From Elusimicrobiota bacterium (GTDB taxonomy: Bacteria > Elusimicrobiota > Elusimicrobia > 2-02-FULL-39-32), in the NCBI GenBank assembly GCA_016180425.1, contig JACPBF010000006.1, positions 1 through 64,000 on the forward strand: DNA of 64,000 nt, read 5' to 3'. Under the pieces are notes generated by a model, which was not told the origin of the DNA, did not search any database, and was given only the letters and a program-made list of their open reading frames with translations. Numbering within the stretch: the first letter of the stretch is position 1; the number at the start of each line of letters is the position of its first letter. Below, in pieces: positions 16,295 to 53,740 of this stretch. The translations under genes and the position numbers were made by a program.

Positions 16295-17913
16295 GCAAAC
16301 TTATTTTTAAAGAACAAACGCTCTTTGCCTGCTTCTTTAAAAATCAGGTCAATTTCATCATATTCCAACTCTTCTTTTTTAAGCAGTTCTTGAGCAAAAT
16401 GCTCTAAAATCGGCCATTCTGCCTTTAAGGTTTTTTCTACGTCTTCAATGCAACTCTTTAAAATCGCCTGCACCTGACGATTCAAAATATTTTTCATCTC
16501 TTCAGAAACCTCATGTTTAGGAATGGCAGAAAAGTCTCCGATTGTGCCGTCCGTGCCCATGCCAAACCTCCAGACCATATTGTGCGCAAGCTGCGTGGCT
16601 TTTTCAAAATCAGAAGCCACGCCGCTAGAGGTTACGCCGTACTTAATTCTTTCGGAAACATAGCCGGCTAAAGCTACCTTAATATCTGCCAAGATTTTAT
16701 CCCGGTCAATGGTGTAGTATTCCTCACGGGGCTGATGGTGCACCATGCCTAAAGCTCCTCCTCGGGAAATAATGGAAGCTTTAAAAACATCATCTGTAGG
16801 ATGCAAAAAATAAAGAATCACTAAGTGTCCTGATTCATGGTAAGCGATCAGCTCTTTTTCTCGATCCGTCATGGTTAAACGGTGAGCAATGCCTAAATCT
16901 ATTCTGTCAATCGCCTCTGAAAAATCCTCATAATCTATCTTTTCTCTTTCTTTGCGCGCGGCAATTAATGCCGCTTCTTTTACAATATTCTCAAGATCCG
17001 CGGGAGATTTATACACGCACTTACGAGCCAGACGACCCACATCAATATCCGTAGTTGTGCTTTTAACTTTAGCCAAATAATAGGCAAAGATTTGTTCTCT
17101 TTCTTTAAGGTTAGGCCTGCCAATGTAAATTTTTCTGTCAAATCTTCCTGGACGAAGCAGGGCTTTATCTAAAATATCTTCGCTGGCATTGGTTGCCCCA
17201 ATCACAACCACATTTTCCTGCCGATCATTTAAGCCGTCCATCTCTACTAAGAGCTGGTTTTGAGTGCTGTTGGTTTCTTCCCCAGAGCCCATAAAAGAAT
17301 AGGTTCGTCCACGACCAATCACATCTAGCTCATCAATAAACACAATCGCGGCTCCATGAGCGTACGCTAAATCCCGCGCCTTAGAAAAAAGTTTTCTTAC
17401 CCTAGACGCGCCTACGCCCACAAAAATCTCTACAAACTCGCTTCCTGCCACAGAAACAAAAGGAATGTTGGATTCACAGGCAATGCCCTTGGCAAGCAAA
17501 GTTTTACCGCACCCTGGAGGCCCAACCATTAAAACTCCCTTAATAATTTTCCCCCCGATTTGCCTCACCCGGGTCCTATCCTTTAAAAGCTGAACCACTT
17601 CCCATGCTTCTTTTTTTGCATCATCTAATCCAATAATATCGCGAAAATGGATATTGACATCTTGAATTTTTATCCTTGTCTTTTTCATGGAGCCAAACCC
17701 GCCGCGAAAAACCGTCATATAAAAATAAACAAAAATTAAAGCGTTTAAAGCGGTCAAAAAAATCTGTAAGGGAATTTGCGCTAAGGTAATATTGCGGTAA
17801 AAAGACTCTAAAGACATGAGACCAATCACAGTAAAAATTAGAACAATGATTGTGCCAATAGTAATTAAAATCGTGGCCTTATTATTCATCCAAAAAATTT
17901 TAAGCTTTCTCAT
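16291..17913 (-). CDS. ftsH: FtsH-like membrane ATP-dependent zinc metalloprotease (short form)
   Basis: The 540-residue protein has two closely spaced membrane segments (about 14-33 and 42-65) with almost no periplasmic loop, then an AAA+ domain with Walker A GPPGCGKT, Walker [10 protein letters not shown] and the second region of homology [20 protein letters not shown]. The zinc motif HESGH is near residue 358 and the third ligand Asp in [13 protein letters not shown]. Typical FtsH has 600-650 residues and a 70-residue periplasmic domain, missing here. All catalytic parts are intact, so it should degrade membrane or cytoplasmic substrates. Being embedded among two-component genes and coupled to a lipoprotein, it may be a specialised paralogue rather than the housekeeping FtsH. 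Confidence 0.93.
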
Positions 17914-19606: not shown

Positions 19607-19659
19607 TTTTTAAACCCCTAAATAATTGGAGTGCGACAGCATAACCTTTCACTCAGATT

Positions 19660-20034
19660 TTATATCCCAGCATAAATACTAATACCTTGATAGGGAACTT
19701 CAATATTCCTGTAAGGAGCTCTCTTAACATCTTTTGCCTTACTCATCTGAACTAATCCATAATTCTTTAATATCTGCATATCATCATAAACATTTCTAAA
19801 GTTTCTTCCAGATATCTTTGCAAGTTCATAAATTGAATGCGGATGTTTTTCCCGAATTAAATGAAGTAACCCCAGCCTCTTTTCCGTTAAAAGATTCCTT
19901 ACAGCTTCTAAACTTGTAAAGCATATACCTTTAATAGATTTTACTTTCTTGCCTGCTTGAAGATTTCTAAAAACTCCAATAAACTCTTTATCTGCCTCTC
20001 TCTCACTCTGAATCTTAATTTCAAAAGTTCTCAT
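19660..20034 (-). CDS. tumA: TumA-like antitoxin / HTH transcriptional regulator
   Basis: A 124-residue protein with a winged-helix core: LTEKRLGLLHLIREKHPHSI, then IYELAKISGRNFRNVYDDMQ with the recognition helix, then LKNYGLVQM. The N-terminal 40 residues form a separate strand-rich part. It follows and overlaps by 14 bp a small TumE-like gene. This arrangement, TumE toxin then HTH antitoxin of the HVO_A0114 type, is that of known TumE/TumA toxin-antitoxin modules. It should neutralise the toxin and repress the operon. It is convergent with the kinase gene at 18461. Confidence 0.8.
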   Translation of the reverse strand: MRTFEIKIQSEREADKEFIGVFRNLQAGKKVKSIKGICFTSLEAVRNLLTEKRLGLLHLIREKHPHSIYELAKISGRNFRNVYDDMQILKNYGLVQMSKAKDVKRAPYRNIEVPYQGISIYAGI

Positions 20035-20314
20035 TCTTTATCGCCTCCTGCACATCTTTTTTAAAGTCTGACAATAACCTTTCTACTGTGGAAAACTGAT
20101 AGGTAAGCTCCTCCTGTTTAATATGTTTATGATGACCTTTAGGATGATGATTATCATACAGCACTAAAGGTTTCTTCCGTGGTTTTGAAATATAAGCTAA
20201 TCTATACCGAATACCTTGAGGATGCTTAAACGTTCTTTGAACAAGCCATATGACACGCTCTTCTATAGCTCCATTCTGATGAATCCGTTTACGATGAAGA
20301 ATCAATTTAGCCAT
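20021..20314 (-). CDS. tumE: TumE-like toxin (DUF6516 family)
   Basis: A 97-residue protein with the family core YRLAYISKPRKKPLVLYDNH followed by HHPKGHHKHIKQEE, where a His-rich GHHKH motif is the family hallmark, and a C-terminal helix (VERLLSDFKKDVQEA). It starts the two-gene unit and overlaps the antitoxin gene by 14 bp. TumE is described as the toxin of a two-component addiction module; its biochemical target is not established. The upstream 30 bp are AT-rich (TATATTGTATTATATA), probably promoter and operator. Confidence 0.8.
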   Translation of the reverse strand: MAKLILHRKRIHQNGAIEERVIWLVQRTFKHPQGIRYRLAYISKPRKKPLVLYDNHHPKGHHKHIKQEELTYQFSTVERLLSDFKKDVQEAIKNENF

Positions 20315-20411
20315 TGATTAAATCTACTATATTGTATTATATACCATATAAAACATCAGCGGTCAAGATGGGCGATGCGCTTAACCCGCCCTATAAAGAA
20401 ACGCACCTGTT

Positions 20412-23400
20412 TTACTGAGAGTAAGCAACCACTTTTATTCCGAATAAGCTATTTTCTATAAATACAATTCTGTTTTCTTTAAAAGCCTCATGCCAAATTT
20501 TTCCCATCAAACCTTCTAAAGACCATAAACCATTTTTATTAAGGACTCTTAAAGAATAACCGTCTGCCAAACCATGTGAGCGAATGAGCTTCCTTAAATT
20601 AAACTTGCCTTTTTCCCTTGGTTGAGTGAGAATACGGAACTGCTGCTTTATCTCATAAAGACTAATTCCCTGATTAAGTAGAATTTTTTCTATTTCTCCT
20701 TTAGTTTTTAAGAGATCATCCGTTACTATCACAACCTCATATTTTCTTGAATCTTTTTTCTTCTCTTGACCCATGCTCTCTTCTTTCATCTCTTCTAAGA
20801 AGCTCCTCACTTCCTCAATTGAAGAAGAACAATCCCCTGCATTGAGAACCAACCTTTGATTTTGTTCCTGAATCTTATTATTTTGCAAATAAACCCTGTC
20901 TCCTAAAATATTTGAAAGCAATTTTAATTGATTTTCGGTTGAATTTTTTTGTTTAGATTGTTCAGGGGCAACACTATTCCTAACTGAATTAAAGAGGAGT
21001 TCAGTTCCAGATTGATTCGCAGTAAAGGGGCTAAACCAAACATCAGAAATGCCTTGAAGCGCTGAATCAGACTGTCCCAATAAAGCTTGATTCACTTTCA
21101 CTCTTTTTTCAACAGCATGAGTTAAAATTGGAGAATCCCCTTTTCCAAGCGCTAATGCGATAGAAGGATTCATGGAAAAAGTAGCCTCTTCTCTATCTAA
21201 TTTTTCAAAACTCACAGGAGTTAAAGATGGTTTAATCGTCACTTTAATTTTTAATAACGACCCAATGGATTGCTTTAGATCTTGATGCTCTTGTAAGCTC
21301 TGTTCTCTATAAGTTTGCGCATGACTAAGAGAGAAAGATTGCAACAAAATGGAATTAAAAAATAGTACAGGAATTAAAAACATTGAAAGGAGAACAGATA
21401 AAGTAATTTTCATTTTAACTGTAATTGCAATTTTTGAAAAAATCGTTTTAAAAGATTGGGTTGGAGGCGCGCGGGCTTCTATTTTTTGCCACAACTCATC
21501 CGAAACATTGCCGCCAGTGGCGATCCCTATAATCACTTCTCTATCGCTGAACAGTTCTGGATAAGTTTCAACCGCAAGAGCATTCATGCCTGCAGTAACT
21601 TCTACTCTCTGGCCTCGCAGTTCGCTTTCAGAACTATTTGATAAATCGTCATAAACCATCCTGGTTGCTCTGATCAAATCTTCATTCTTTACAATCACAG
21701 AAGCATCTAAAGTTTTCAACAATACTTGAATCGCAAATTCTTCTGGTTTGGCAACAGCAATTTGATCTTCATCTAAATGATGTTCGGATTCAACTGGAAC
21801 TTCTTGAACTTTCCCTGCTCTTAAAGATTGATGCGCCGCATTCACTTTTTCTGTTTGGACTCCAATGATCTTGATATTGGCGCCTCTCATTAAAGCTAGA
21901 GTTTTCAAAACCCAGGCGATCCCAGCCGCATGCCCGCCAGAACCCATGGGAACAGTCACAGCGATATTCTTATGTAGTAAACCCATGCGCTCCAACTGAT
22001 CGAAAATCTCAAGTCCCGTGGTTGCATATCCTGCCACCACAAACTCATCTCCATGCGGAATATGAAGGAGGGTTCGTTCTTGGCCTTTGGACTTATCTTT
22101 TTCCTCTAATAATTTCACAAACGCGTTCGCCTGATCATAGCCGCTAAATTCTTTGCCCTGATCATCTTGCGTGACAACTCTTGTATAAGGTTGAGATTGA
22201 ATCGCGTTCATCTTGACGGATTTAATTGAGGGCGATGTATAAATTTCAGCAAAGAGATTTTTGGTTTCTTCTGGATAAAGTTTTTTTAAGAGATGAACCG
22301 CATATGCTGTGTTTAACCCATGATTTCCAGTAGAAGCAGTGACCAATTTCCTTATTTTATCTCTCCCCTCTTTGAACATTTTAAATAAAACAAAAGCTTT
22401 TGCCTGGGCCCGAATCTTAAAAGCTTTGCGAGGCTGCAAAAATTCCGGTTTATAAAAAACCATTTTTCCTTCACCAGCCTTCGCGCTTAAATTCGCCATG
22501 GGAATAAGCGGGGTCTCAAGTTTTATGTTATCCATGGCAAGAGCTTCCTCCAATGCCTTCTTAGATTCCAAGACCATAGCCATGTTTAGCCATTCAATCT
22601 CTCTTGAGCGCGAGGCATCTGGATTCAGCCAAACAGTCTCTGGATGAACATTCCCTAAAAGGATCTGAGGAATGTCTATCACAGTTACACCTTGCTTTAT
22701 AAAAAGTTTTAAAAACAATTTGGAAAATTGTTGAGCGCCTAAAGGAGTGGGATTGGACGCGCGTTCGAAATAAAGAAGGTGCAAAAAAATGGCAACTGTT
22801 TTACCTATAAGCCAAGGAATTTCATGAGGATCATCAATAAGCGCGGAATCTTCAGTGTGTTCTAAATCTTTTAAAAGCTGCCGCTCTAAACGATCAAAAA
22901 AATGAAGAAGATCAATCTCTGAACTTGACTTATATTGATCTACAAGAGAATCAATATAGCGCTGAGACTCAATTCTTACATTTCTACTACCATCTACATC
23001 CGGTCTAAGCACTAGTAACATCACTTGAAAACCTTGAGAAAAATCAACCCACAAACCATTCTGGAAGAAAGAAAAATTCAAAAGCGCTTTTGGCAAACGG
23101 TGAACTTTCCGATGCCAATAATATGAGTTCACAATTAGGTGCGGCAAAACCATTAAAATAGGTAATGTTGCTAACAGAAAATAACCGCTCGGGTTTAGGA
23201 AAGAATAAGGGATAAGAAAAATTATGCTTAAAGCAGTGATAAGAAGTTTATCGCTTTTAAAAGCTTTGCCGCGGCCATGCAAGCGGTGCCAAGTGAACTG
23301 GAAAAAACCAAGAATGATAAATAAAGGAGGTCCGATTTCCAAAGGAATCCCAAAAATCCGTTCAAGGATCAAATGCGTTAAAACCGTCATCCCTCCCACC

Positions 23401-26400
23401 CACAAACCCGACTCTATTAAGGAAGGGGAGAGCGCCTGTCCAAACCAGTTCAAACCTAACCAGTCATACAATCCTTGCAAGAATGACCACTTGCCGCCCT
23501 GTTCCACAATCTCTTCTTTTGCTGATTGATCAAACTTGATTTGATCCGCCTGGTTTTTATCTTCTGATAAAAATGAAATTCTTAAAGCCAAAATTTTTGG
23601 CAGAAGTTTTAAGCCTTGCTCTCCTTCCACAAACCTAAATAGATTTCTTTCATCTTGGGTCAATTCAACCTTAAGCTTTTTAAATTCAGCAAGGAATGCT
23701 GGCAAGTGATCCTCAATTTGCTGGATGATTCCGTGAAACAGTTCTTGATTTTTATTGTCGTCTTTACTCCACTTTTCTTGATCCGCAAAATTTATATAAT
23801 CTTCCAAAGATTTAACTAAAGGCTCTGCATTTTTTATAGATTGAGGTTTTTTCTTTTTCTTTTCCCTTTCCAAAACAATTGGCAGCCATACGTGCAGAAA
23901 CCCATAAGCTGATCCAACAATGTCATTGACCAAATCAATATCTTCATAGTCCGTTGTATATTTCCTTACGGAATCTATCCTTCTAAATTCTTCAAACAGA
24001 TATCGCGAGACCTCCAGAGTGAGTTTGCCAGACTCTATTTGAGTTTTTAGATAGTCCAGGGCTAAGAGAACGTAAAACTCGCCGATTGCTTTTTTTAAAT
24101 CTGTCTGAGGAGTCTTCAACAGCTCAGCCAGCCGGCCGCGCTGAATCTGAAGAAGAGCATCCCATCTCTCTGTTGGATATAAAGCCACAGGATCTAACGC
24201 AAAAACATCTGGTTCCCCTAAACTAGAAATAAACTTATAATAGACCTGAAATGCCTCGTCTATCATAAACCTTCGTTTGATTCTACGTTCTAAGGTCTGA
24301 TATTTTGCAGCGGCATTAATATAAACATCTTGTAATTTCATCTTTACCTCAGGATCAGAAATTCCTAAATTAATAATTTCATCACTCATATATTTTGCCT
24401 TTTTGTAAATAGTATCCTCATCTATCAACTCAAGGAGTTCCTTTAAGAGCTCCTCCATGTAATCAAATGGAAAAATTTGAGCAACTGTTTTACCCTGTTT
24501 TATTTGCTGAATCAGATCCTGAATCTGAAGAAGAGAAAATAATTTTTTATCCCTTATCCCCTCTAAAAGATTTTTAATTTGATTTTCTTCCCAGTTTGCA
24601 TTATAGAGCGCGCCGCCTAAAGCTGCTGCCTCTCTAATTCTTAAATCTGGCAAAACATCTAAAATGCGAGACAATAAAAGCTTTCTCTCTTCATGACGTT
24701 TTAATGCGGCAGCAGTTCTTGCTTTATGTTCTTCTTCTTTCTCGCGCTTTTTTGTTTCTTCTGCAACCTGCTTTGCCTCTGCCAAAACTTGTATCTCAGC
24801 CTGCTCGCGTTCAAGCTTTAATTTTGCCTCTCTCTCTTTGGCTTTTTCTTCAGCAGCTTTAGCTTCTCTTAAAGCTTTAATCCTGAGCCGCCATAGATTT
24901 GGCAATAATTGAGCCAAAAGCCTTTTAGCTTTTTCATCTTGCGCTCTTTGTTCTAGCGCGGCATTGCGCGCCATTTCCGCTCTTTCAGCCGCTTCTTTTA
25001 GCCGCAAAGTTTCATTTTCCGCTGCCTGAGTTGCCAATGCCTCTTCTATAATCCTCAAGGTATCTTCCATCGCCTTTTTCAATGCAGCGCTATATTTCAC
25101 TATCTCAGTCTGGAACATCTCCTGTAGAAAATCCACAACTTTCTGATTCGGATTTTCTTTTAAAGATTCTATGCCTTTGATCAAATCTTTAATGGTTTGA
25201 TCCTCTTTTCTCTGTTTAGGTTTTTCATTGAAAAAATCAAACCTTGCCCTTAAAGATTCTAAACGAATTTCTATAGGAGCAAAACCACTTATTTTAGCGT
25301 CAAGGCTCATAACAATTTGAACCAATCTTCTCCGTGTCTGATCATTGGCATTTAGCTCTAAACTCTTTAAAGCCATTTCTTTAAGAACCAAACTGAATTT
25401 TTCTTTTCCTATCATTAAACCTTTAAACGCAGCCACAAATTTTTGTAAAGATTCATTTTGGATTTTTGCGCTGTTCACCCTAAATATAAAATCTATTAAT
25501 TCCTTAATTAATTCTAAAGATTCAGCCTCTTTTCCAGACTCTAAATAGGCTGCGATCAAATCCGTCATGGTATAAATATTTTCAGAATCCAAAAATTTCG
25601 CTTTTTCCCAGCATTCCACCGCCTGCTCTAAGCGACCCGCCCGCTCCGCTCCTTCAGGCAAGGAATAAACAAAAATAGCATGATTCCCTCCAAGGAGCGA
25701 ATAAAAAATTCTATTTCTTTTATCCGTGTCGTTAGATGTGTCTCCATTAGTAAATTTCTCTAAATAAAAAGTAAGAAAATTTCCTGCCTGTTCCATCAAT
25801 CCTAAATTCATCAATGCTCTTGCGCAATATTCAACTGCGCGCCGTTCATGATCTTCAGATAAGTTTGGTTGTTTCAATGCCCAGCTATAGCTATTAATAC
25901 TTCTCCCAAGATTTCTAGAAATTTCAATTTCTAATTTTGCCTTTCTCTTTTTCGACTCTTCCTCCTTAGCCTGTGACAAAAATTCGGTCTTGGCCTCATC
26001 TTCAATCAGCTTTTTAACCTCCTCTCTCCCTTCAACAACTTGTTCAAAATAAACATCTCCTAAAAGCACCCTGACATAAGCAGGCTGAATAGGATTATCC
26101 GGCAATAATAGAGTTTCTGCTTTTTTAAGAGCTGTTAGTGCTTCACTATAAGCTGATTTATCCACGTCTGCTAGATTAAAGTAAGATAGTCCCAAAAATA
26201 CCCAAAGCCTTCCCTGCTCTTTTACCGGGGGATTTAAACCAAGCGCGTTTTGATAACTTTCTATGGCGCTCTTCCAATTTCCTGCTGTTCTAGCTTGATC
26301 TCCTTTAACCGCTTCTTTTAACCACTCTGGGATTTGAGCGCCAAATGAAACCTCTTGCTTGTTATCCATATCTTTCCAACGATTCCTAATATCATCAAAT

Positions 26401-29400
26401 AGTCCTGTGGCCTTATCTTTAGAATCTCCAAAAAGATCTAAAGTGCCTCCAACCATTGGCATAATCAGCGCTCTAGGATCTATCCCGGGTAATACAACTA
26501 TGCCTTGATCTATGGCTCTTATGATTGCTGTGGAAACATTTTCAAATTCACTTGTAATATTACCTCCTTGATTCGCGCTCATATTTTTTCGAGCCGCTGT
26601 ACTTCTTCTATTCCCACGCTGTTTTCCTCTTCTAATCTTCTTTTTCTTTATTTTATTTGTGATCCCATTTCCATTCATAACAATGGGAAGCCAAATTGTG
26701 AAGCGGGCGCCTCCCTGTGAAACTATCTCTCCTTGTTCATTGAAGAGAGGCAGGCGTAATCTGGATCCATTATCCGCCTCAATCGTGCCCTTAGAATCTT
26801 CAACTATAATTTTCCAAGCTTCTGACATTCCAACTCCTCTTTCTTTTCCTCCTGTAGTTCCTCCTCGATTCCAAATCATTTGTCTGCCTGTTAAATGATC
26901 TATAGCCAACATCTCAGATGAAATGCCCTTGCCATCATCCTCAATTGTAATTTCAACTCCCCATTTCCCTTTTTTTCTTTGCCGATTAAACGTAATATTT
27001 ACCCGAGCATCCCAAGATTGACGTTCAAAAGCGTTTTTCTCAGCGCAATTCTTTAAAATTTCGCCTAAAACCCTTTGCAAACCAATAGGATTTGCTATCT
27101 TTACTAAGTCCGCTTCATTTAAAAATTCATGGGTGATAAAAAACTCTTTCTCTCCACCTGCCATACGAAAAGGTATTTTTATTGGTTTTTCCTCTTTTTT
27201 TTCATCTTGGACAACTTCTACTACAGTCAAACCATTCCACCAATCGTTAAAACGATTTCTGGTTTCATTATATTTATAGTTGTCATTCTCCATGTACTCA
27301 ACTCTTTCGCCAAATTGCTGCCATACCCTGTCCAAGGTTTCAGGAGAGTTCTCCCCTTGTTTTTTTAAAAACTGAATTTGCATGTTCAAAATATTAGGCA
27401 TGAACACTAAATAATACGGGTATAAGAAATATTTAATAAATCTTTTCAATCCTTCCGCGTTATCTTTATCCATAAAATTCATTTTAGTCAGCTTTCCCCG
27501 CAAACGATTTATATTGGAATTTAAATCCCGCGGGTGGCCAATCGCTTTAATCAATTCTTCAAAAACCGCAATGATCTCTTCATTAGATAAATTGACCCAA
27601 TCTTGCTTAAACAAAACATTTAATTTTTCCAAAGCTTCTTTAATGATCTTTTCCAATTCAAAAAATTCATCCTCATCTTCTGAATCCAATAATTCCTGCA
27701 AATAAGTTGGAACCAAAGTGGATAAAAGACCAAGATAATCCAATAACGCGTGTGAATTCAAACTGATCCTAGAAATAACGCGCCGCAGGATGGCTTCATA
27801 ATGAACTTTGATCGTCTTATCTTTCTTATGATTTTCAAGGTGTTGAAGCGCCAAAATTAATTTAGCCTTTTCCTCTAATTGATCCAACATCACGTTTGGA
27901 TTGACCATCAAACCATGAAACTCAGCGATCTGAAGGCTTACGAGTTGATCCCATACATCTTTTTGCTTTTTCATCAAGTTATAAGGATCAATGTCAACAA
28001 AATTTCTTTCTATTTCTTGGTCTCCTTGTTTAACCTTAAATTTATGTTCTAAGATGAGTTTGTAATAGGCCGCAACTGAAATTGAAAGATCTAAATCTAA
28101 ACTTTCCATATATTTAACCAGCTTTCCTTCACTCTGGCTTATATTCACATCCGGGCTGTTTCCAAAAACAATTTTAAAACTTGAAACGATTTCATTGAAC
28201 ATCTGATTTTTTTGAGCCTTTTCAATCGCTCTTTGAACTCTTTCTAGATGTTCCTTCAAGGGCAAAACATAAGTGGAATAATAATTATGCCCCTCTACCT
28301 TAATTCCTTGGACAAGATATTCTAAATTTGATATCTCTACAAGAATAGAGCGAACATCATAAGAATCTAAAATTCTATTTCTATATCGCCTAAAAATATC
28401 TTCCTGTTCCTCATCTATTTTAGATTTAATAATTTCAAAAAGAGGATAGTCCCCAATAGAACCTATTTCTTTTATAACAAAACCTAATTCTTTAAAAGCA
28501 GCTCTGAATTCAGTCGCCCGTATTTTATGGCTGAGCATCACCAGAAATTTACCATCATCTTTAAGCACCCTCATGATCTCGCTGGCTGCTTTCAAATAAT
28601 AATCTCGCGGTTTGGTATAGCCAATGTTTTTCATCGCAGTGACATCAAAATATTCATCAAAAAATGGTTCTGCTATAATCAAATCATATTGGTTAGAATC
28701 CTTACGAATATCCAAAACATCACTCTTGCTAAATAATTCGGTTGAGATTCCATTGGTTCCTGCAAATGGGCTGATACTGTCCGCTCCCATTCCAGCTTTA
28801 ACCAAATGTTCAGCAACACAATTCGCTGGAGCACCATTCTCCAAACCAACATACAAGACTCGATTGCCTGACAAACTTTTCATCACCTGATCAATTTGCA
28901 TCCCGTGATCAATCCCATACTTTGCTAAAATAATATTAACCAGCCAAATTCGATGCTCTTGTGTCATTGGGATTCTTGAACGATTTTCAAATAACCCCCA
29001 TGTTTTTTCAGCAACTAACTCTGGGTTTTCTATTGACTGCGCAAGATAAGATTCCACATTGGGATGAGGAAGAGCTTCAAATATAAGATCCAAACTATAG
29101 TTTTTCTGCCATTTTGCAAGAGTAGTCCAAGGCACTAACTTAGTGCTTAAAAGCCTTGCTATTTGCCACTCATTTAAACCATTCTCCTCATAAGTCTTGA
29201 TTTGTTGAAGAAGCCTCTCTGCCAAATCTGCTAAATCAATAGGATCAAAATTAAGTTTTTCCAAACTAGAAAGATCAGATAGTTTTAATAAACCCTCTTC
29301 TTTTAAAAAATCCAGGGATTTTCTTTGCAGTCTAACAAGGGTCCAGGCTATGGTTTTAGCATGGGCATCTGAAATTTCTTCATAAGTGGCCTCATGCAAA

Positions 29401-32400
29401 TTTTGAGAAAGTTTATTTACAAACTCTAGTTCCAAAGGAAAAAGATAGCGTACGTTTCCATAAACAGGCTCTAACCGAGTGAGTGACCTTGAATCTGGAT
29501 CATTGTCTTTATGCTCCACATGCCAAATCATCTTAGTTTTTCCAAAAACATCTAATTGCACCTCAACCTCACCTTTCTTTCTATTTCTAAAAATTGGCAG
29601 ATAGGATTCTTTTGTCGCAGTAAACTTTCCATCTTTATCCAAATGATAATAAAGTAAAGTTAACTCCCCATACTGACTGCTAAGATCAGCCAAGTAACTG
29701 GGTTCAATCTCCTTAGGCTCGCGATAGATATGGACTAATTGATGTTTTGAATTTCTTACTTCAATCATTTTTACAGGTTTATGAGCTTTATCCGGAGTTA
29801 TAAATTCAATTAAAGTTGGGTACTCTATAAGATCGCCATCCATATCCAGACCTTTTTCAGTATGAACCTTTACTTTCGCATTCTTTAATTCTTCGATTTC
29901 TGTTATGGTCCAAAAATCTAAGTCTAGTTGAAGTTCTCCATCGCTTAACTTAGTTATTATGACTGACTTATCCCCTACAGAGGAATCCCCATTATGAGCT
30001 GCGCCTAAAATGTGAGCTAAAGGAAGCCATTTTCTTAAAAATAGCAGCAGGCTTTCCAGTATCTCTGAAATTGTTTCAGCCACAAAACGGCTTTTAAAGC
30101 TTTTAAGGAATAACACAAAAGCATCAGGAAAACCGCTATTAAGGAATAAGATAAAAGCATTATAAGATGAGTGAGCGATTGTGCTCATTGCATAAGCGTC
30201 TAAATAAACTCCCTGAAAATAAAATGCGGGAACAAATGTAAATATTAAGATGTAAACAGCAGTAAAAATAAAAGAAGGAAAAATATATTTAAGAAAATCA
30301 ATGACTGCGTCTTCAAAGCTAGAGTAAATTCTTTTCTCTCTTGGTTTACTCTGATCAACAATCCACTTTACAATCACGTGGCTAGCTGAAAAAAGAAAGA
30401 TGCTTACATATAACATTGAGCCGATTGCTATAGGATCCGAAAAAAAGAAGGATCCAAACGTGTCATCCCTGCCGCCGATTACAAGGTCTCTGAAAATTTT
30501 TTCTTCTAAAAGAGGCCCAACCAAAAGAACCAAAACCAAATAAAGAGGATAGGCATTTTTGCGCAAGAGCTGCACGAATTGAAGCGGATCCAAAATAAAT
30601 GCCGGACCTGATTTTTTAGATGCTAAAGAACCAAGAGCTAAGAGCCGCTGCTGTTTTGAACCTTCCTCTTCCGGAAAAGGGAAATTTGCAAGAGAATCTT
30701 CAGATTTATTTATTTTGATTTCGTTGCGTCGAGGATGAGTCATCCTTAGCCGATTGATGATATCGGACACACCCAAGGTCTTCATATAAGAGGGGAAGCG
30801 ATCCAATATGTCCTGAGGAATGAAACCATTCTCTCGCAGCCAAGCTGTCGCAAAATGGTAGATATGATTGTACCATTCGTCAATATTTTCAACTTCAGCG
30901 CCTCTTCTAAAAAGAGGCGCGTATTTCTGAGTTGCTTGCGTGAGCCGTATGAAATCCGCTTCTTTCATGCGATCGAATATTTGAATCAATCTTTTATACG
31001 CCTCATAATCTAAACTTCCCCTATAAGAATCTGGGAGCATAAACGAATAAACTGCAATAAAAGGAATCGCGGCTAAACAGGTTTTTCTTGCGGCAGCAGG
31101 GAGCGACTTAGTTGAATTAATTTGTTTGCGGTAAGCTCGAAACCTAGAAGGAGAATAGGGTTCAAGCAGCATTGATTTAGGATTCAAGTTCAAAGATTTA
31201 TATTTGCCCCTACTGCCTAATAATTTAGAAGCATTCGAATGACCAGCGCCCACTCGAATAAGAATAGATACCCTAGGATGATCCTGTTTTAATTTTTGCA
31301 CAAGCTCTGCCAAAGCTTGGTCTCTTAAACTAATATGCTTTTCAAACTCCAAATAATAAATCGCCATTTCCTTTAAAAATAACTTTTCATCTTTCTTGTC
31401 ATAAAGAGCTTTCATGGCTCTATCCATAGCAAGTTCCGAACGAATTCCTGCCAGCATGCTCTCAAATGGAGCTTTCTCTCCCCTCACCTGAATCTTAGGA
31501 TTTCTTACAAAATAATCAAAAAGAGCTTGATTATTTCTAATATCCCCGCCAATAGCTTCCCCCCTACGCGCTTTCGCCACCCCTTCTTCATATCCTTTCC
31601 AACCAGCTTTCAAAATTCCTTCTAGGGCTCTCCTAATTGTGGGATCATTCAATTTTTTCGGACTATCTATAATGGATTTAATGTTGGGTAAATATTGTCT
31701 TAAATGCTGAAGTTGGGGAGGAGCTGATTCTATAACAACAAACACTTCCGAATGATTTTTTGAAGCTGACTCAACTTGTTTGATAAACCCTTGAGTAGAT
31801 TCTGTGACATGATTTTCAAAATACCAGATCACTTCACCATGAGACTGCATGGCTCCTGATAATTTTACCGCAGGAACAGGAGCCAAAACCACGGCATCAG
31901 AAAGGAGAGCTTTGCTCAACGTTATTACCGCCGGCGCTGGAGATAAAACTGCAGCATCAGAAGGCTGCGCTTTCCCAAATGTCAGCATCGCGGATGTCAT
32001 TAAAGAAACCAATAAAACTGGAAGAAGACCAAACCATCTCTTGCCTAATTTCTTTTTGGAAGGGGCTTGGGGCGGCGGTGGCAGCTGAGAATGAGTATCA
32101 TTGAATGCCTCTCTTAAGCGCTTTAACTCTTCATACTGCTCCTTTAACTGATTATAAATATCCTGCACCTTCACTACTCCATAGAGCCTGCCGCGCCTTA
32201 AGTGTTCTGGAATTGCATCTCCCCCGCAATTATGATTCTTTTCAGCAATATCAGGATAATGCTTTAAGAGTTTATCCGCCTCTAAGATCGCTTGACCGGT
32301 AGCTTCTAAAATCTGATCTAAAACAGCTGCTAACTCTTCAATTTCAGATGGATTGAGAACTCTTAATTCTCTGCGAGCATTTAGAACCGTTTTCTCATAT

Positions 32401-35400
32401 AAATAATCAAATTCCTTCTGATTAATTACCTCGCTTGCTGAATCTAGGAGCTTATAAATCTTCCGCATCGCCAAATTTTTTAAAGTGGGCGCAAAAACAG
32501 CCCGGCGAGCATCACCCACCCATTTTTCACGCACATTCTCAAAAGCATGAATATATTTAAATGTATCCAAAGAGCTTTTGAGACCACTGGGAAGATTTTT
32601 AATTTGATTCAATTTTTCTTCTAAAGGAGTAAGCATAAAATCATCTAAACTTAAATGTGTGATATAATTTAAAGATTGAAGAGAAGGGATACGATTCGTA
32701 TCTTCTAACTCTGAATAAAGAACTGCTATCACTGGCATATAATCAGAAATAGTTGTAACTACCCTTTTAGGATTTTTTAAAACAGCTAATATAAAAAGAA
32801 CAAACCTAAGCAAAGAAGCCGGGTTCTGAGGATTGTTTGCAATGGATATGTTTGGCAAACTGCGAATATCCTCTATAAGTAAATCATCAAATCCAAACTG
32901 TCTTTGCAAATCTTTTAAAGAAATCTCTTTATGCTGCATAAGAGAACCGTAATTCACAGTTGGATCATACGCATAATTAAAAGTGTCTATGATCTTAAAT
33001 TCAAAGAACTGGCCTTGGGGAACAAAACCCATAGAAACAATAGAGCCACCCATATTATGTCTAAAATTATTTTGAGCATAACTTAAGAGCATGGCTGCTA
33101 AATAAAATTTTTGACCTGCATTGATCTCATCCATATTGGATACAAAATCAATAATTTTTTGTTCATTTGACTCAGCCCAAGTGTGGACACTGGGATCCAC
33201 TCTATCTTCATAGTTTCTATGCGTTGGAATAGATAACCTTGTATCCTCAGGGAATGTCATGGGTAAGGAACCTTCTCTTAAAACAATACTGGTTGCCTGT
33301 TCACTAGAAGAGGTAAGGAAATCTTGGAGTTTAGCTGCTAGAGGAGCTTCTTCATAGGGACGTTGATAGTGAATAATTCCATCAATATGATCCATCTCTC
33401 CCATTAAATCAATAGTTCCATAAGCGCTTGCGCCATTTGTCTTTACTAAAACTGCGCTTACCACAGCCATGGTGAATAAAGGCAGGGAAAGACCCAGTGG
33501 ATCATACCCTTGCTGACCTTCACTCACTCCTGCAACAATCGTTACAGGATGGCTGATCTGAAAAGGTATCTGATTAAAATCTTCCACATGGAAAAATCCT
33601 GTGATTGCAGCTATTTGCGCTTCTGGATGAGAAGAAAGATATTGGTCAATAAACTGCCCCATATAAACTCCACGTTCATAATCGCATTTATCTTTATTTT
33701 GATATTTCTGTTGCTCATTTTTAGGCATGTCCATGAATACAACTTCCAAACCAAGTTCTTGAGCCTGTCTGACCAACTGTATGAAACGATGCGAAATCCG
33801 TGTGCGCTCTGCAATCTCCTCAATATTCTCAACATTTAAATCAGAACCGATTTCTATAAACAAATGTGTAATTCCCGCATCCTTTAGCTCTTTTAAATGT
33901 TCAATAAATCCTCTTTGCACACCCAAGAAACCATGGTTGGTATCTCCAAGTATGATTCCTCTCTTGCCAAAAAGTAATCCGTGATAATCCACACCTTCTC
34001 TCCATCCCCTATCCACAACCTCTTCCCAAAGAGAATTGTCCCCCATTCCAATATCAGTGAGAATGTTTAATTTTTGTTTAGATCTAGGACTAACTCCCTG
34101 TCCTACTGTAATATCCCCAGAAACAGGATAAACGATTTTTGTTCCACTCTCTGTTTGCGCAAGATGAGCAGAATCACGATCCCCTTCTTTCCTATCCTCC
34201 CTAGACAATATAGAAGATTGTAGAGACCGCGCAATATTCAAAATAAGATGAGTGATGGGAGAGGCTATAAAAAGAGCGTAAATGGGAAGAGAAAAAGCAG
34301 GATACAATAAGGCAACATTGATCAGCGTTAAAATGATTGCGTCAAAAAGTTTTTTAGGAGGAGCTTCAGAACCAAACCTCTTTGCAACTACAGGAAGATG
34401 ACCAAAAATGAATAGGGCTCTGGAAGCTAAATATGCGCTGACTAAAGCGCGCTCCAAATTTAAGCCGCTTAAAACAAAAATTGGCAGTCCAACCAAAATA
34501 GCCGCAAAGAAATAAACACCAACTTCTTCCACTAACCAACTTCTTTTAAGGCTGTATTCTCTCTCTGTTAAGCCTGGAAACCATTTTTTCCAAACCCAAT
34601 CCATGTTCGCCCCGGCATTTCCCTGACCTTTTAGTTTCTTAAGAATGGGACTCCCCAGAGATTCTGAACCAGATTTCCCCATGGGAACATCTGTTTGATC
34701 AAAAGATTGAATATCATCCCCGGATGCCCGCGCTAAAACCCGCGGTAGCGCACCTCGTCTTACACTATGTTTAACTTTTGATCGCCTCGGACCAGCAAGT
34801 TTCTTACTCTTGCGGAATGTGAGATTTCCTTTTCTATTGAACTGCGGCACAATTCTGCTTTCCGGCCAAACAGTTTTTTTTGGCGAACGCGAGATAAGAT
34901 TCTCCATCCTCCAATCTCTACTAGCCTCAAACTCTTTATTCCTGCCAACTAAAATCTGCTCGATTTTAGAATCATCTGTTTCTACCCCAGATAATTCTCC
35001 TTGAACCATGAGAGTTGGAAGCGACTTTACTAAAAGAGCTGCTTGGCCCAGATTTAACATGCTGGCAGTTCTTAAAGTGCCCATGGATGCCTTTATTTCA
35101 GATTTAAGATTTTGAACTTTAGAAGGATAGAAATGTTCTCTAGGCGAATACTCTAAAACAAAATGAACTCGGTGTTGGTCTCCTTGATAAGCGCCAAGGA
35201 TATATTCCTTTCCCTCGCGCTCAATTGGAGCTGTAAAAAAGAGCCTGTTCTTTAAAATGTCTAGGACTAAGGCTGCTTCAATTTTTGTTTCACTCTCTTG
35301 GGAACTTTCTCTTAAACCCTCTAGTTTCAAACTGTAATCATTAAGGGAGGAGACGAATTTTTCCGGAGTTAAAATTTTCTTTGGAAGCGATCTAAAATCT

Positions 35401-35597
35401 TCTGGCTGGGACTTTAAGTTGGATTTAGAACTTTGATTTGAATAATTGAAATTAGGCAGAACCTCTGTTCTCATGTTTCTGGCGCTGGCATAAGGTGGAG
35501 CGAGCATTGAAAAAATAAAAGCGAACAAGCTGGCTAGAGCTAAAGCTTTTTTCCAAAGAGTTAAAATTCTTCCTTCTCGCTTAGGCGCTGATTTCAT
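20412..35597 (-). CDS. Giant 5,061-residue multidomain membrane/envelope protein
   Basis: One uninterrupted frame of 15.2 kb. Approximate order: signal peptide or anchor ending in APPYASA (1-40); hydrophobic block (350-460); Tiki/ChaN-like domain (535-690; GDTNHG, FIEIGSD, GFFH); an unassigned region with NNFRHNMGGS (846); membrane segment (about 1190); second Tiki-like domain (1250-1460; FENHVTE, VIESAPP, GAGH); CPBP-type membrane protease domain (1690-1815) with EEKIFR, FSASH and HSSYN; methyltransferase-like domain (2240-2388; VLYVGLENG, DLIIAEPFFD); GHKL ATPase (2830-2970; EILKNCAEKN, EDDGKGI, GKERGVGM); TPRs (3090-3370); Ala/Glu coiled coil (3510-3660); membrane block (4060-4170); fold-type II PLP domain (4370-4700) with FKIRA lysine near 4394, STGNHG and GSGG; a final membrane segment (about 4730). 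Active-site motifs of several domains are intact, arguing against decay. The role is unknown. It is divergent from an OmpR-type regulator. No clear ribosome-binding site is seen at the start. Confidence 0.9.
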   Translation of the reverse strand: MKSAPKREGRILTLWKKALALASLFAFIFSMLAPPYASARNMRTEVLPNFNYSNQSSKSNLKSQPEDFRSLPKKILTPEKFVSSLNDYSLKLEGLRESSQESETKIEAALVLDILKNRLFFTAPIEREGKEYILGAYQGDQHRVHFVLEYSPREHFYPSKVQNLKSEIKASMGTLRTASMLNLGQAALLVKSLPTLMVQGELSGVETDDSKIEQILVGRNKEFEASRDWRMENLISRSPKKTVWPESRIVPQFNRKGNLTFRKSKKLAGPRRSKVKHSVRRGALPRVLARASGDDIQSFDQTDVPMGKSGSESLGSPILKKLKGQGNAGANMDWVWKKWFPGLTEREYSLKRSWLVEEVGVYFFAAILVGLPIFVLSGLNLERALVSAYLASRALFIFGHLPVVAKRFGSEAPPKKLFDAIILTLINVALLYPAFSLPIYALFIASPITHLILNIARSLQSSILSREDRKEGDRDSAHLAQTESGTKIVYPVSGDITVGQGVSPRSKQKLNILTDIGMGDNSLWEEVVDRGWREGVDYHGLLFGKRGIILGDTNHGFLGVQRGFIEHLKELKDAGITHLFIEIGSDLNVENIEEIAERTRISHRFIQLVRQAQELGLEVVFMDMPKNEQQKYQNKDKCDYERGVYMGQFIDQYLSSHPEAQIAAITGFFHVEDFNQIPFQISHPVTIVAGVSEGQQGYDPLGLSLPLFTMAVVSAVLVKTNGASAYGTIDLMGEMDHIDGIIHYQRPYEEAPLAAKLQDFLTSSSEQATSIVLREGSLPMTFPEDTRLSIPTHRNYEDRVDPSVHTWAESNEQKIIDFVSNMDEINAGQKFYLAAMLLSYAQNNFRHNMGGSIVSMGFVPQGQFFEFKIIDTFNYAYDPTVNYGSLMQHKEISLKDLQRQFGFDDLLIEDIRSLPNISIANNPQNPASLLRFVLFILAVLKNPKRVVTTISDYMPVIAVLYSELEDTNRIPSLQSLNYITHLSLDDFMLTPLEEKLNQIKNLPSGLKSSLDTFKYIHAFENVREKWVGDARRAVFAPTLKNLAMRKIYKLLDSASEVINQKEFDYLYEKTVLNARRELRVLNPSEIEELAAVLDQILEATGQAILEADKLLKHYPDIAEKNHNCGGDAIPEHLRRGRLYGVVKVQDIYNQLKEQYEELKRLREAFNDTHSQLPPPPQAPSKKKLGKRWFGLLPVLLVSLMTSAMLTFGKAQPSDAAVLSPAPAVITLSKALLSDAVVLAPVPAVKLSGAMQSHGEVIWYFENHVTESTQGFIKQVESASKNHSEVFVVIESAPPQLQHLRQYLPNIKSIIDSPKKLNDPTIRRALEGILKAGWKGYEEGVAKARRGEAIGGDIRNNQALFDYFVRNPKIQVRGEKAPFESMLAGIRSELAMDRAMKALYDKKDEKLFLKEMAIYYLEFEKHISLRDQALAELVQKLKQDHPRVSILIRVGAGHSNASKLLGSRGKYKSLNLNPKSMLLEPYSPSRFRAYRKQINSTKSLPAAARKTCLAAIPFIAVYSFMLPDSYRGSLDYEAYKRLIQIFDRMKEADFIRLTQATQKYAPLFRRGAEVENIDEWYNHIYHFATAWLRENGFIPQDILDRFPSYMKTLGVSDIINRLRMTHPRRNEIKINKSEDSLANFPFPEEEGSKQQRLLALGSLASKKSGPAFILDPLQFVQLLRKNAYPLYLVLVLLVGPLLEEKIFRDLVIGGRDDTFGSFFFSDPIAIGSMLYVSIFLFSASHVIVKWIVDQSKPREKRIYSSFEDAVIDFLKYIFPSFIFTAVYILIFTFVPAFYFQGVYLDAYAMSTIAHSSYNAFILFLNSGFPDAFVLFLKSFKSRFVAETISEILESLLLFLRKWLPLAHILGAAHNGDSSVGDKSVIITKLSDGELQLDLDFWTITEIEELKNAKVKVHTEKGLDMDGDLIEYPTLIEFITPDKAHKPVKMIEVRNSKHQLVHIYREPKEIEPSYLADLSSQYGELTLLYYHLDKDGKFTATKESYLPIFRNRKKGEVEVQLDVFGKTKMIWHVEHKDNDPDSRSLTRLEPVYGNVRYLFPLELEFVNKLSQNLHEATYEEISDAHAKTIAWTLVRLQRKSLDFLKEEGLLKLSDLSSLEKLNFDPIDLADLAERLLQQIKTYEENGLNEWQIARLLSTKLVPWTTLAKWQKNYSLDLIFEALPHPNVESYLAQSIENPELVAEKTWGLFENRSRIPMTQEHRIWLVNIILAKYGIDHGMQIDQVMKSLSGNRVLYVGLENGAPANCVAEHLVKAGMGADSISPFAGTNGISTELFSKSDVLDIRKDSNQYDLIIAEPFFDEYFDVTAMKNIGYTKPRDYYLKAASEIMRVLKDDGKFLVMLSHKIRATEFRAAFKELGFVIKEIGSIGDYPLFEIIKSKIDEEQEDIFRRYRNRILDSYDVRSILVEISNLEYLVQGIKVEGHNYYSTYVLPLKEHLERVQRAIEKAQKNQMFNEIVSSFKIVFGNSPDVNISQSEGKLVKYMESLDLDLSISVAAYYKLILEHKFKVKQGDQEIERNFVDIDPYNLMKKQKDVWDQLVSLQIAEFHGLMVNPNVMLDQLEEKAKLILALQHLENHKKDKTIKVHYEAILRRVISRISLNSHALLDYLGLLSTLVPTYLQELLDSEDEDEFFELEKIIKEALEKLNVLFKQDWVNLSNEEIIAVFEELIKAIGHPRDLNSNINRLRGKLTKMNFMDKDNAEGLKRFIKYFLYPYYLVFMPNILNMQIQFLKKQGENSPETLDRVWQQFGERVEYMENDNYKYNETRNRFNDWWNGLTVVEVVQDEKKEEKPIKIPFRMAGGEKEFFITHEFLNEADLVKIANPIGLQRVLGEILKNCAEKNAFERQSWDARVNITFNRQRKKGKWGVEITIEDDGKGISSEMLAIDHLTGRQMIWNRGGTTGGKERGVGMSEAWKIIVEDSKGTIEADNGSRLRLPLFNEQGEIVSQGGARFTIWLPIVMNGNGITNKIKKKKIRRGKQRGNRRSTAARKNMSANQGGNITSEFENVSTAIIRAIDQGIVVLPGIDPRALIMPMVGGTLDLFGDSKDKATGLFDDIRNRWKDMDNKQEVSFGAQIPEWLKEAVKGDQARTAGNWKSAIESYQNALGLNPPVKEQGRLWVFLGLSYFNLADVDKSAYSEALTALKKAETLLLPDNPIQPAYVRVLLGDVYFEQVVEGREEVKKLIEDEAKTEFLSQAKEEESKKRKAKLEIEISRNLGRSINSYSWALKQPNLSEDHERRAVEYCARALMNLGLMEQAGNFLTFYLEKFTNGDTSNDTDKRNRIFYSLLGGNHAIFVYSLPEGAERAGRLEQAVECWEKAKFLDSENIYTMTDLIAAYLESGKEAESLELIKELIDFIFRVNSAKIQNESLQKFVAAFKGLMIGKEKFSLVLKEMALKSLELNANDQTRRRLVQIVMSLDAKISGFAPIEIRLESLRARFDFFNEKPKQRKEDQTIKDLIKGIESLKENPNQKVVDFLQEMFQTEIVKYSAALKKAMEDTLRIIEEALATQAAENETLRLKEAAERAEMARNAALEQRAQDEKAKRLLAQLLPNLWRLRIKALREAKAAEEKAKEREAKLKLEREQAEIQVLAEAKQVAEETKKREKEEEHKARTAAALKRHEERKLLLSRILDVLPDLRIREAAALGGALYNANWEENQIKNLLEGIRDKKLFSLLQIQDLIQQIKQGKTVAQIFPFDYMEELLKELLELIDEDTIYKKAKYMSDEIINLGISDPEVKMKLQDVYINAAAKYQTLERRIKRRFMIDEAFQVYYKFISSLGEPDVFALDPVALYPTERWDALLQIQRGRLAELLKTPQTDLKKAIGEFYVLLALDYLKTQIESGKLTLEVSRYLFEEFRRIDSVRKYTTDYEDIDLVNDIVGSAYGFLHVWLPIVLEREKKKKKPQSIKNAEPLVKSLEDYINFADQEKWSKDDNKNQELFHGIIQQIEDHLPAFLAEFKKLKVELTQDERNLFRFVEGEQGLKLLPKILALRISFLSEDKNQADQIKFDQSAKEEIVEQGGKWSFLQGLYDWLGLNWFGQALSPSLIESGLWVGGMTVLTHLILERIFGIPLEIGPPLFIILGFFQFTWHRLHGRGKAFKSDKLLITALSIIFLIPYSFLNPSGYFLLATLPILMVLPHLIVNSYYWHRKVHRLPKALLNFSFFQNGLWVDFSQGFQVMLLVLRPDVDGSRNVRIESQRYIDSLVDQYKSSSEIDLLHFFDRLERQLLKDLEHTEDSALIDDPHEIPWLIGKTVAIFLHLLYFERASNPTPLGAQQFSKLFLKLFIKQGVTVIDIPQILLGNVHPETVWLNPDASRSREIEWLNMAMVLESKKALEEALAMDNIKLETPLIPMANLSAKAGEGKMVFYKPEFLQPRKAFKIRAQAKAFVLFKMFKEGRDKIRKLVTASTGNHGLNTAYAVHLLKKLYPEETKNLFAEIYTSPSIKSVKMNAIQSQPYTRVVTQDDQGKEFSGYDQANAFVKLLEEKDKSKGQERTLLHIPHGDEFVVAGYATTGLEIFDQLERMGLLHKNIAVTVPMGSGGHAAGIAWVLKTLALMRGANIKIIGVQTEKVNAAHQSLRAGKVQEVPVESEHHLDEDQIAVAKPEEFAIQVLLKTLDASVIVKNEDLIRATRMVYDDLSNSSESELRGQRVEVTAGMNALAVETYPELFSDREVIIGIATGGNVSDELWQKIEARAPPTQSFKTIFSKIAITVKMKITLSVLLSMFLIPVLFFNSILLQSFSLSHAQTYREQSLQEHQDLKQSIGSLLKIKVTIKPSLTPVSFEKLDREEATFSMNPSIALALGKGDSPILTHAVEKRVKVNQALLGQSDSALQGISDVWFSPFTANQSGTELLFNSVRNSVAPEQSKQKNSTENQLKLLSNILGDRVYLQNNKIQEQNQRLVLNAGDCSSSIEEVRSFLEEMKEESMGQEKKKDSRKYEVVIVTDDLLKTKGEIEKILLNQGISLYEIKQQFRILTQPREKGKFNLRKLIRSHGLADGYSLRVLNKNGLWSLEGLMGKIWHEAFKENRIVFIENSLFGIKVVAYSQ

Positions 35598-35636: not shown

Positions 35637-35671
35637 AACTTTTTGTAACATTTTTGTAACATTTTTGTAAC
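35637..35671. promoter_or_regulatory. Conserved 25-bp box, copy 2, with three TGTAAC repeats at 11-bp spacing
   Basis: TGTAAC occurs at 35644-35649, 35655-35660 and 35666-35671, exactly 11 bp apart, in the 82-bp gap between the giant gene and the OmpR-family regulator. One-turn spaced direct repeats are the classical binding pattern of that regulator family. The array ends 8 bp before the regulator ATG and starts 39 bp before the giant gene, so one site could control both. Confidence 0.65.
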
Positions 35672-35679
35672 GCAAATCA

Positions 35680-36378
35680 ATGGAACAACATAAACAAACC
35701 ATTCTCGTCATTGAAGATGAAGTCCACATACGCGATCTAGTAGAGACGATTCTCACAGATAATGGTTTTGTTACAACCGGATGTGATTCCGCTGAAAAAG
35801 CCTTAAAAAAAATCCCTTCTATTAAACCAGACCTTATTCTCTTAGATATTCAACTGACAGGCATGAACGGCTTAGAATGCTGTAAACAGATCCGTTCAGA
35901 CTCTCAGATGAGAGACATTCCCATTATCTTTCTTACTGTGCAGTCTTCAGACGCTTATAAAATTACAGGGCTTGAATCTGGCGGGGATGATTTTATCACC
36001 AAACCTTTTAGCCATGGCGAACTCTTAGCCCGGGTCAGAGCTGTTTTAAGAAGAGTGCATCGGCCAAAGGTGAGCTTAAATAAAAACATATTAAAAGATG
36101 ACCTAATCGCTTTAGATTTGGAAAACCGAGTCACTAAAATAGAGAATAAAGAATATGAACTCACCCCAAAAGAATTTGACTTGCTTGTGCTTTTCTTAAA
36201 ATCCAGAGGAAAAGTGTTGAGCAGAGATCTACTTTCCACCCAAGTTTGGGAAAGAGAAAACATAGGAACTTCTAGAACCATAGATACTCACATCGGCAGG
36301 CTAAGAAAAAAATTAGGCAAATATGGCTTGACGATTCATACAGTTGGCCGAATCGGCTACCGTTACAACCCAGAATAA
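35680..36378 (+). CDS. OmpR/PhoB-family response regulator divergent from the giant gene
   Basis: A 232-residue regulator: REC with VIEDE (acidic pair), phospho-Asp in PDLILLDIQLTGMNG (near 54), Lys in DDFITKPFSHGELL; then a winged helix beginning LTPKEFDLLVLFL with SRTIDTHIGRLRKKLGKYG as recognition helix. Triple TGTAAC repeats lie immediately upstream, suggesting autoregulation and control of the giant gene. Its ATG is close behind the array, so the 5' leader must be very short or overlap it. No kinase is adjacent on the same strand; the kinase at 36923 faces it. Confidence 0.94.
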   Translation: MEQHKQTILVIEDEVHIRDLVETILTDNGFVTTGCDSAEKALKKIPSIKPDLILLDIQLTGMNGLECCKQIRSDSQMRDIPIIFLTVQSSDAYKITGLESGGDDFITKPFSHGELLARVRAVLRRVHRPKVSLNKNILKDDLIALDLENRVTKIENKEYELTPKEFDLLVLFLKSRGKVLSRDLLSTQVWERENIGTSRTIDTHIGRLRKKLGKYGLTIHTVGRIGYRYNPE

Positions 36379-53602: not shown

Positions 53603-53630
53603 AATAATAATTATAGCAGACCATCATGGT

Positions 53631-53677
53631 TTGTCAAGTTAAGAAACCTGACTATTTTGTCAAGTTTCTTTACTTGA
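53631..53677. promoter_or_regulatory. Direct and inverted repeat in the divergent korA/mntA-like promoter region
   Basis: TTGTCAAGTT occurs at 53631-53640 and 53658-53667. TCAAGTTAAGAAAC (53634-53647) and GTTTCTTTACTTGA (53664-53677) are inverted repeats with one mismatch. It could be a repressor site or a hairpin; no regulator is named. Confidence 0.4.
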
Positions 53678-53740
53678 TTTTGAAAAACTATTCCTCTCTT
53701 GATGTGTAATGGTATTTAAAAACTTGCTGACTAAGTCTTA

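Follow-up and report, generated by a model that had tools for sequence, protein, structure and literature searches.

The question raised by this locus is whether an open reading frame of 15.2 kb encodes one protein and, if so, what a chain joining several enzyme domains would be used for. The window, i.e. the whole stretch of 64,000 nucleotides that was analysed, is contig 3 of a genome of 2.6 Mb (98% complete). The initial annotation had reported an uninterrupted frame of 5,061 codons at positions 20412-35597, and both length and coordinates were borne out: the gene lies on the minus strand, with its ATG at 35597 and its stop at 20412, and reads through 5,061 amino acids, the plus strand across the same interval being riddled with stops.

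Giant ORFs have been described in Omnitrophota and other uncultured phyla (Seymour et al. 2023, PMC10066038; a survey, PMC11573180; West-Roberts, via PMC12057145), and the accessible portions of this literature list Elusimicrobia among the phyla rich in huge proteins, several papers calling the roles of giant bacterial ORFs unclear or poorly understood. As far as these portions describe them, the published giants resemble the present gene in being very long single frames with membrane helices and few annotated domains in uncultured lineages. The present gene differs from the published Omnitrophota giants in that its host belongs to Elusimicrobiota and its 15.2 kb fall below the 20-kb cut-off of Seymour et al. 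(PMC10066038), and from the published giants in that those of its domains that can be recognised belong to enzymes rather than to adhesins or glycan hydrolases.

A related genome was found to carry an orthologue with the same domain order, in a single frame of 4,880 aa without a stop in 14.6 kb. This genome, an Elusimicrobia MAG (contig MGUU01000017.1, Elusimicrobia bacterium RIFCSPLOWO2_02_FULL_39_32), represents a sister species of the same genus; Omnitrophota as host was rejected on the record title of this sister contig, which places the host in Elusimicrobiota. The two proteins align end to end at 82-87% identity, with one large difference at residues ~314-480, a region holding a membrane block. 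Synonymous divergence between the two genes is 0.37 and whole-gene dN/dS is 0.23, with all 200-residue windows between 0.06 and 0.38; the lowest full-size window is the PLP domain (0.073) and the highest the coiled-coil-like stretch. The flanking genes are also kept in the sister species: the response regulator (99%), a hybrid kinase (95%) and an M41-type protease (98%). Other giants in both MAGs show apparent frame breaks (contig 10 of the source genome, G000, versus contig 16 of the sister genome, G001, and contig 19 versus contig 24), but a fusion of adjacent genes by assembly error or missed frameshifts is extremely improbable for this gene and was rejected, since frame, order and flanks all recur in the separate genome of the sister species, and dN/dS agrees. 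Separate orthologous genes, a frameshift or an assembly join, against which the initial annotation had set its claim, were not what the orthologue, its domain order, the flanks and dN/dS revealed. The 15-kb giant gene is real; its product is a single membrane protein of 5,061 residues with several enzyme domains. A strong Shine-Dalgarno sequence before the internal ATG ahead of the last module was looked for, and none was found.

The features of the locus are listed below (window coordinates).

20412-35597, minus strand: giant gene, 5,061 codons (P0001; ORF list, orthologue, dN/dS)
35640-35672, minus strand: three tandem 11-bp repeats (C/T)GTTACAAAAA, promoter motif common to other giants
35680-36378, plus strand: OmpR-type response regulator, candidate regulator of the giants (regulatory link inferred)
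35478-35567, minus strand: N-terminal signal-peptide-like segment, residues 11-40, ending in APPYASA (hydropathy, comparison with other giants)
34893-35423, minus strand: module A2, family-specific N-terminal module, residues 59-235
34194-34580, minus strand: membrane block 1, residues 340-468, recurring in other giants, absent from the sister orthologue
33528-33980, minus strand: first Tiki/ChaN-like region, residues ~540-690, weak assignment
31875-32045, minus strand: signal-like membrane segment ahead of the ChaN-like module, residues 1185-1241
30696-31859, minus strand: Tiki/ChaN-like module A1, residues 1247-1634
30129-30590, minus strand: CPBP/Rce1-like intramembrane protease domain, residues 1670-1823, with EExxxR, FxxxH and HxxxN
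28398-28880, minus strand: methyltransferase-like domain, residues ~2240-2400, weak assignment
26682-27092, minus strand: GHKL ATPase of histidine-kinase type, residues 2836-2972, with N-box, DDGKGI and GVGM kept
25398-26330, minus strand: TPR region, residues ~3090-3400 (profile search)
24678-25100, minus strand: charged coiled-coil-like stretch, residues 3500-3640, least conserved part (sequence by eye, dN/dS)
23565-24647, minus strand: helical region kept in the short form, residues 3651-4011
23073-23465, minus strand: membrane block 3, residues 4045-4175, recurring in other genomes of the class
21528-22517, minus strand: PLP fold-type II (threonine-dehydratase-like) domain, residues 4361-4690
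21312-21425, minus strand: signal-like membrane segment ahead of the last module, residues 4725-4762
20415-21080, minus strand: module A3, C-terminal module common to other giants, residues 4840-5061

Next to the 3′ end of the giant gene, ~800 bp (19607-20411) separate it from the following gene. This stretch is missing from the sister genome and holds two small ORFs, one of them an HVO_A0114-type HTH protein; the insert looks like a toxin-antitoxin-like pair.

The joining of several enzyme and scaffold domains in one long gene, as originally proposed, is supported, and the several separate membrane blocks are present in the sequence. Three of the proposed domains proved firm: the fold-type II PLP domain (PALP, E=4.5e-36), the GHKL ATPase (HATPase_c, E=7e-11) and the TPRs (E ~2e-4, single repeats staying below the curated score). 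The CPBP-like domain can be regarded as good, with a Rce1/CPBP match (E=5.7e-4) just under the gathering score and three catalytic motifs, and the proposed coiled coil is visible as a charged, coiled-coil-like stretch. Of the two Tiki/ChaN-like domains, the second is probable, being a recurring module with invariant residues; the first is a weak candidate. The methyltransferase-like domain is likewise a weak assignment from a sub-threshold match (12.5 bits versus a cut-off of 20.1; PADLOC mad2, 2.4e-6 over 88 residues only). A role in anti-phage defence was considered and rejected, the matches being weak only.

The PLP domain matches PF00291 with 125 bits (cut-off 35) over profile positions 7-290 of 295, and contains the PLP-lysine motif KAFKIR at 4391, TGNHG and the glycine loop GSGGHA at 4552, which align to threonine dehydratase PDB 8y1j. 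It thereby resembles the threonine dehydratase/serine racemase branch in its full domain, PLP-lysine motif, S/TGNH loop and glycine loop, but differs in falling below every equivalog cut-off: as threonine dehydratase its best score was 84 bits versus NCBIfam cut-offs of 371-801, none of which was reached. The nearest relative found is not a stand-alone enzyme but a domain in another mosaic protein, a chain of 2,109 aa from another family of the class (31%, E 1e-32; L107:5063-11389 in genome G020). That protein has a signal peptide, a ChaN-like N-terminus (IQDIHKNFEAQ), the PLP domain, membrane helices and a GNAT-like part. An origin of the embedded domain by recent capture from the source genome's threonine dehydratase was rejected, as the four stand-alone PLP enzymes of the source genome do not match this domain at 1e-3. 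From this closeness to a mosaic of another family, and not to stand-alone enzymes, the giants seem to draw on a common pool of domains.

The CPBP domain scored 20.6 bits against PF02517 (cut-off 22.4) and carries EExxxR, FxxxH and HxxxN at 1698, 1736 and 1809. It shares with CPBP/Rce1 intramembrane glutamic proteases (PF02517) the placement of these motifs in hydrophobic helices, and differs from them in being embedded in a giant chain and in scoring just below the curated cut-off. Membrane blocks 1 and 3 were considered as extra CPBP domains on account of FxxxH- and HxxxN-like motifs, and profile comparison gave no support.

Module A1, the second ChaN-like domain, is one of eleven copies, all inside long ORFs of the genus of the source genome, the only place where it was found. 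In these eleven copies E17, H19, E46, E130, E135, R181 and H209 are invariant, and one of them matches PF04187 (E 0.0017). In a fold search with the AF2 model (pLDDT 81), ChaN (2g5g) had the highest probability among the listed matches, a weak one (0.69, E 0.39). The strand and helix order of the model and the invariant ExH...E...E...R...GxxH set resemble the Tiki/TraB/ChaN superfamily (PF04187; 2g5g), from which A1 differs by the absence of a significant sequence or fold match and by ~150 extra helical residues on the C-terminal side; A1 is therefore described here as a probable Tiki/ChaN domain. For the first ChaN-like region, with no match in Pfam, a G-D-T-x-H motif, a homologue in another giant and a PDB profile search at E ~0.013 only hint weakly at a Tiki/ChaN domain. 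Comparison of the two regions gave no support for their being homologues.

How such a chain may have been assembled is suggested by a short form of 2,002 aa in another genus of the family. It consists of a signal, A2, a degenerate methyltransferase-like region, GHKL, TPR, the helical region and A3, and thus keeps both ends of the long form; the ChaN-like, CPBP and PLP parts are missing, and a second, diverged copy of the helical region (residues 3651-4011) stands ahead of its GHKL domain. The additional ~2,000 and ~690 residues of the long form sit between segments that are adjacent in the short form, and the comparison favours gain rather than loss, because the ChaN-like module is restricted to the genus. 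Module A2 was found in the N-terminal part of long ORFs in eight of the nine family genomes, whereas the 226 other genomes of the class gave no match; its model is of moderate quality (pLDDT 67), with no significant PDB match. Module A3 recurs at or close to the C-terminal end of further long ORFs, and other giants also contain membrane blocks 1 and 3. Read from the sequences, the constant ends and variable interior are a fixed chassis with changeable cargo. Right after the signal peptide, many giants (for example L058, L068 and L107), including one of another family, show W-x-(E/D/A)-R-(R/K)-(K/D)-A; this motif is missing from the window's giant.

In the fetched part of the source genome, the ORFs of ~2,000 aa or more number at least 22. 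They sum by hand to ~91,000 codons and make up at least 10% of the genome, a lower bound since giants were counted in fetched stretches only. Cargo in the sister giants, some of it identified from the sister genome's copy, includes triose-phosphate isomerase (TIM), GAPDH, a Glu/Leu-type dehydrogenase, patatin, a metallophosphatase and a methyltransferase. TIM and GAPDH retain their catalytic motifs, with dN/dS ~0.1, and ordinary TIM and GAPDH genes are present elsewhere in the genome. Both domains (TIM, E 1.5e-32; GAPDH C-terminal, E 2.6e-18) are carried by a signal-peptide-bearing giant of 4,034 aa (L068:7884-19985 on contig 43 of G000; L147 in the sister genome). An open frame of 11,491 aa lies on contig 16 of the sister genome (296851-331263; L091-L093); its counterpart on contig 10 of the source genome (L054) consists of overlapping ORFs of 2,914, 805 and >2,000 aa, likely owing to frame breaks or sequence errors. 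Genes for AAA_14/DUF4143 ATPases (L198:17845-19101, L195:698-1846, L188:1296-2534) are found divergently beside, or just ahead of, several giants.

The giant and the divergent OmpR-type response regulator are separated by 82 bp, which hold three 11-bp repeats (TGTTACAAAAA); the repeats are identical in the sister species. With up to three mismatches, GTTACAAAAATGTTACAAAAA occurs 41 and 44 times in the source and sister genomes, versus 0 and 3 times for a reversed-pattern control. In loci chosen by protein homology alone, plus the window, the motif lies within 350 bp upstream and on the same strand in 11 of 19 ORFs of at least 2,000 aa and in 7 of 124 shorter genes (Fisher p=1.9e-7); the 19 giants were drawn from two sister genomes, so not all are independent. 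Four of the seven shorter genes are a gene or frame fragment immediately ahead of a giant, and at least three of the eight giants without a direct site stand right behind such a motif-bearing gene or fragment. Shuffled motifs gave 0 in 200 trials, and GTTACA-N5-GTTACA was the only spacing that scored (10/19), gaps of 2-4 and 6-8 giving 0/19. After most sites, a conserved GTT(T/G)(A/G)AGA is followed by a TATAAT-like box. Ten loci in the source genome match exactly: eight precede a giant (one cut by the contig end, one broken by a stop), and the other two precede a LacI-type regulator and a 277-aa protein.

Across genomes, the motif count is 2-44 in all nine members of the family versus 0-2 in 32 others, close to the distribution of A2, and both motif and module appear essentially confined to the family. 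Long ORFs of other genera (G005, G002) also bear the motif, and the 2,002-aa homologue has an exact site ~40 bp ahead of its likely ATG. A highly conserved variant, AACTTTTCATTTTTGTCACAAAAAATTTACAAAAAGTTgAAGAC, stands ahead of several genes at 741-785 of the window and on several other contigs, and could be either another class of operator or a dispersed repeat. A further copy with two mismatches was seen at 53602-53764, ~140 bp before a pyruvate:ferredoxin oxidoreductase gene.

Pho-box and OmpR-type operators are tandem direct repeats with an 11-bp period near the promoter. The putative operator described here, proposed from sequence alone, shares with them the 11-bp period, the position upstream of a TATAAT-like box and the adjoining OmpR-type regulator gene; its repeat sequence is different. 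The response regulator (35680-36378) is the obvious candidate for binding the motif, because the motif ends 8 bp before its start; against this choice, the source genome encodes other OmpR-type regulators. Orthologues of the regulator (57-76%) were found in five of the seven other family genomes, the best match outside the family being 54%. Four of the five have the same neighbours in varying subsets (kinase, Rec protein, outer-membrane efflux protein), and the motif stands directly ahead of the orthologue in G003 and G006, the latter genome having only two motif matches. Many giants share end modules and promoter repeat, and they therefore appear to be switched on together as a set. The best reading would be a two-component-controlled regulon of exported or membrane-anchored mosaic giants; a limited literature search, with preprints outside its scope, found no regulon of giants. 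The fuller proposal, that the family devotes at least one tenth of its genome to dozens of giant signal-peptide mosaics with copies of ordinary enzymes, family-specific end modules and one regulator acting via 11-bp repeats, is tentative, its probability falling a little short of even.

The same neighbourhood invites the reading of the giant as a sensor kinase, in which a working GHKL histidine-kinase ATPase would partner the divergent regulator, the outside modules would be sensors and the enzyme domains accessory. The GHKL domain (43 bits against PF02518, cut-off 26.4) indeed has histidine-kinase-type motifs, an N-box and two glycine boxes that the short form also keeps, and the locus, in which the OmpR-type regulator lies at a distance of 82 bp, has many two-component genes. 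However, a profile search of the giant found no HisKA family match, i.e. no HisKA/DHp domain with a phosphoacceptor histidine, and no such histidine was identified near the GHKL domain, a conserved ‘HALLD’ lying ~230 residues before the N-box. Moreover, in G003, G006, G004 and G008 the regulator has an ordinary kinase and a Rec protein as its neighbours, and no giant adjoins it in the stretches read. A giant sensor kinase is accordingly judged quite improbable.

With membrane sides assigned from hydropathy and charge only, the flanking charges favour A2 outside, an inside-out segment ahead of the ChaN-like module and the GHKL-TPR-helical part inside; by the same criterion block 3 would have its two ends on the inside, PLP would likewise be inside, and A3, behind its signal-like segment, would be outside. 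The side of the ChaN-like module is uncertain, given the number of helices around the CPBP part. The most likely product would be a membrane-tethered multi-enzyme scaffold made within a regulated set. Under this model, the response regulator encoded back-to-back with the giant would bind the repeats and switch the giants on together, and the giant would enter the inner membrane by means of the N-terminal signal and the membrane segments within the chain. Modules A2 and A3 and the Tiki/ChaN-like module would lie outside the cytoplasm and the GHKL-TPR-PLP part inside. A TPR/helical scaffold would tether four enzymes: the membrane protease, the Tiki/ChaN-type hydrolase, the GHKL domain, which would use ATP, and the PLP lyase. 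Their use would probably be at the cell surface, in the handling of envelope or partner-cell material. Taken as a whole, a single multi-pass membrane protein with tethered enzymes for cell-surface use, within a regulon of giant mosaics, is the best explanation, and we give it an even chance of being correct.

A surface or predation factor, as proposed for Omnitrophota giants, would instead make the protein an adhesin or a coat protein degrading partner cells. The signal peptide, membrane segments and giant size would suit such a role, and the phylum has already been noted for huge proteins; but profile searches of the giant found no adhesion, glycan-binding or glycan-hydrolase domain, and the cargo consists of cytoplasmic-type enzymes, which leaves this role rather improbable. 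A polyprotein, cut into separately acting enzymes by its own CPBP domain, by signal peptidase at the internal signal-like segments or by the M41/FtsH-like protease encoded at 16291-17913, is unlikely as well, albeit worth serious consideration: both the ChaN-like and the last module follow a signal-like segment with an A-x-A-like end, the chain includes a CPBP protease domain of its own, and the M41-type protease gene nearby is conserved. Separate products would not need the domain order and the TPR and helical scaffold regions, yet these are under purifying selection as a whole, and processed polyproteins are rare in bacteria.

For the preferred reading, a tethered scaffold within a regulated set of giants, the accessible portions of the literature on giant ORFs (PMC10066038, PMC11573180, PMC12057145) mention neither end modules in common nor a promoter motif or regulator. 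Giant ORFs of such a size class are already known from these sources; the end modules, promoter motif and candidate regulator are, to the extent that the sources cover them, the new part. With a common promoter motif and a candidate regulator, what was a list of odd genes becomes one system that can be tested, and the pattern of chassis and cargo, seen as a short form and a long form in sister genera, suggests the way in which giant proteins grow. It is unexpected to find metabolic enzymes copied into signal-peptide giants with their catalytic residues kept. If this reading is true, the family would possess a dedicated, regulated giant-protein system.
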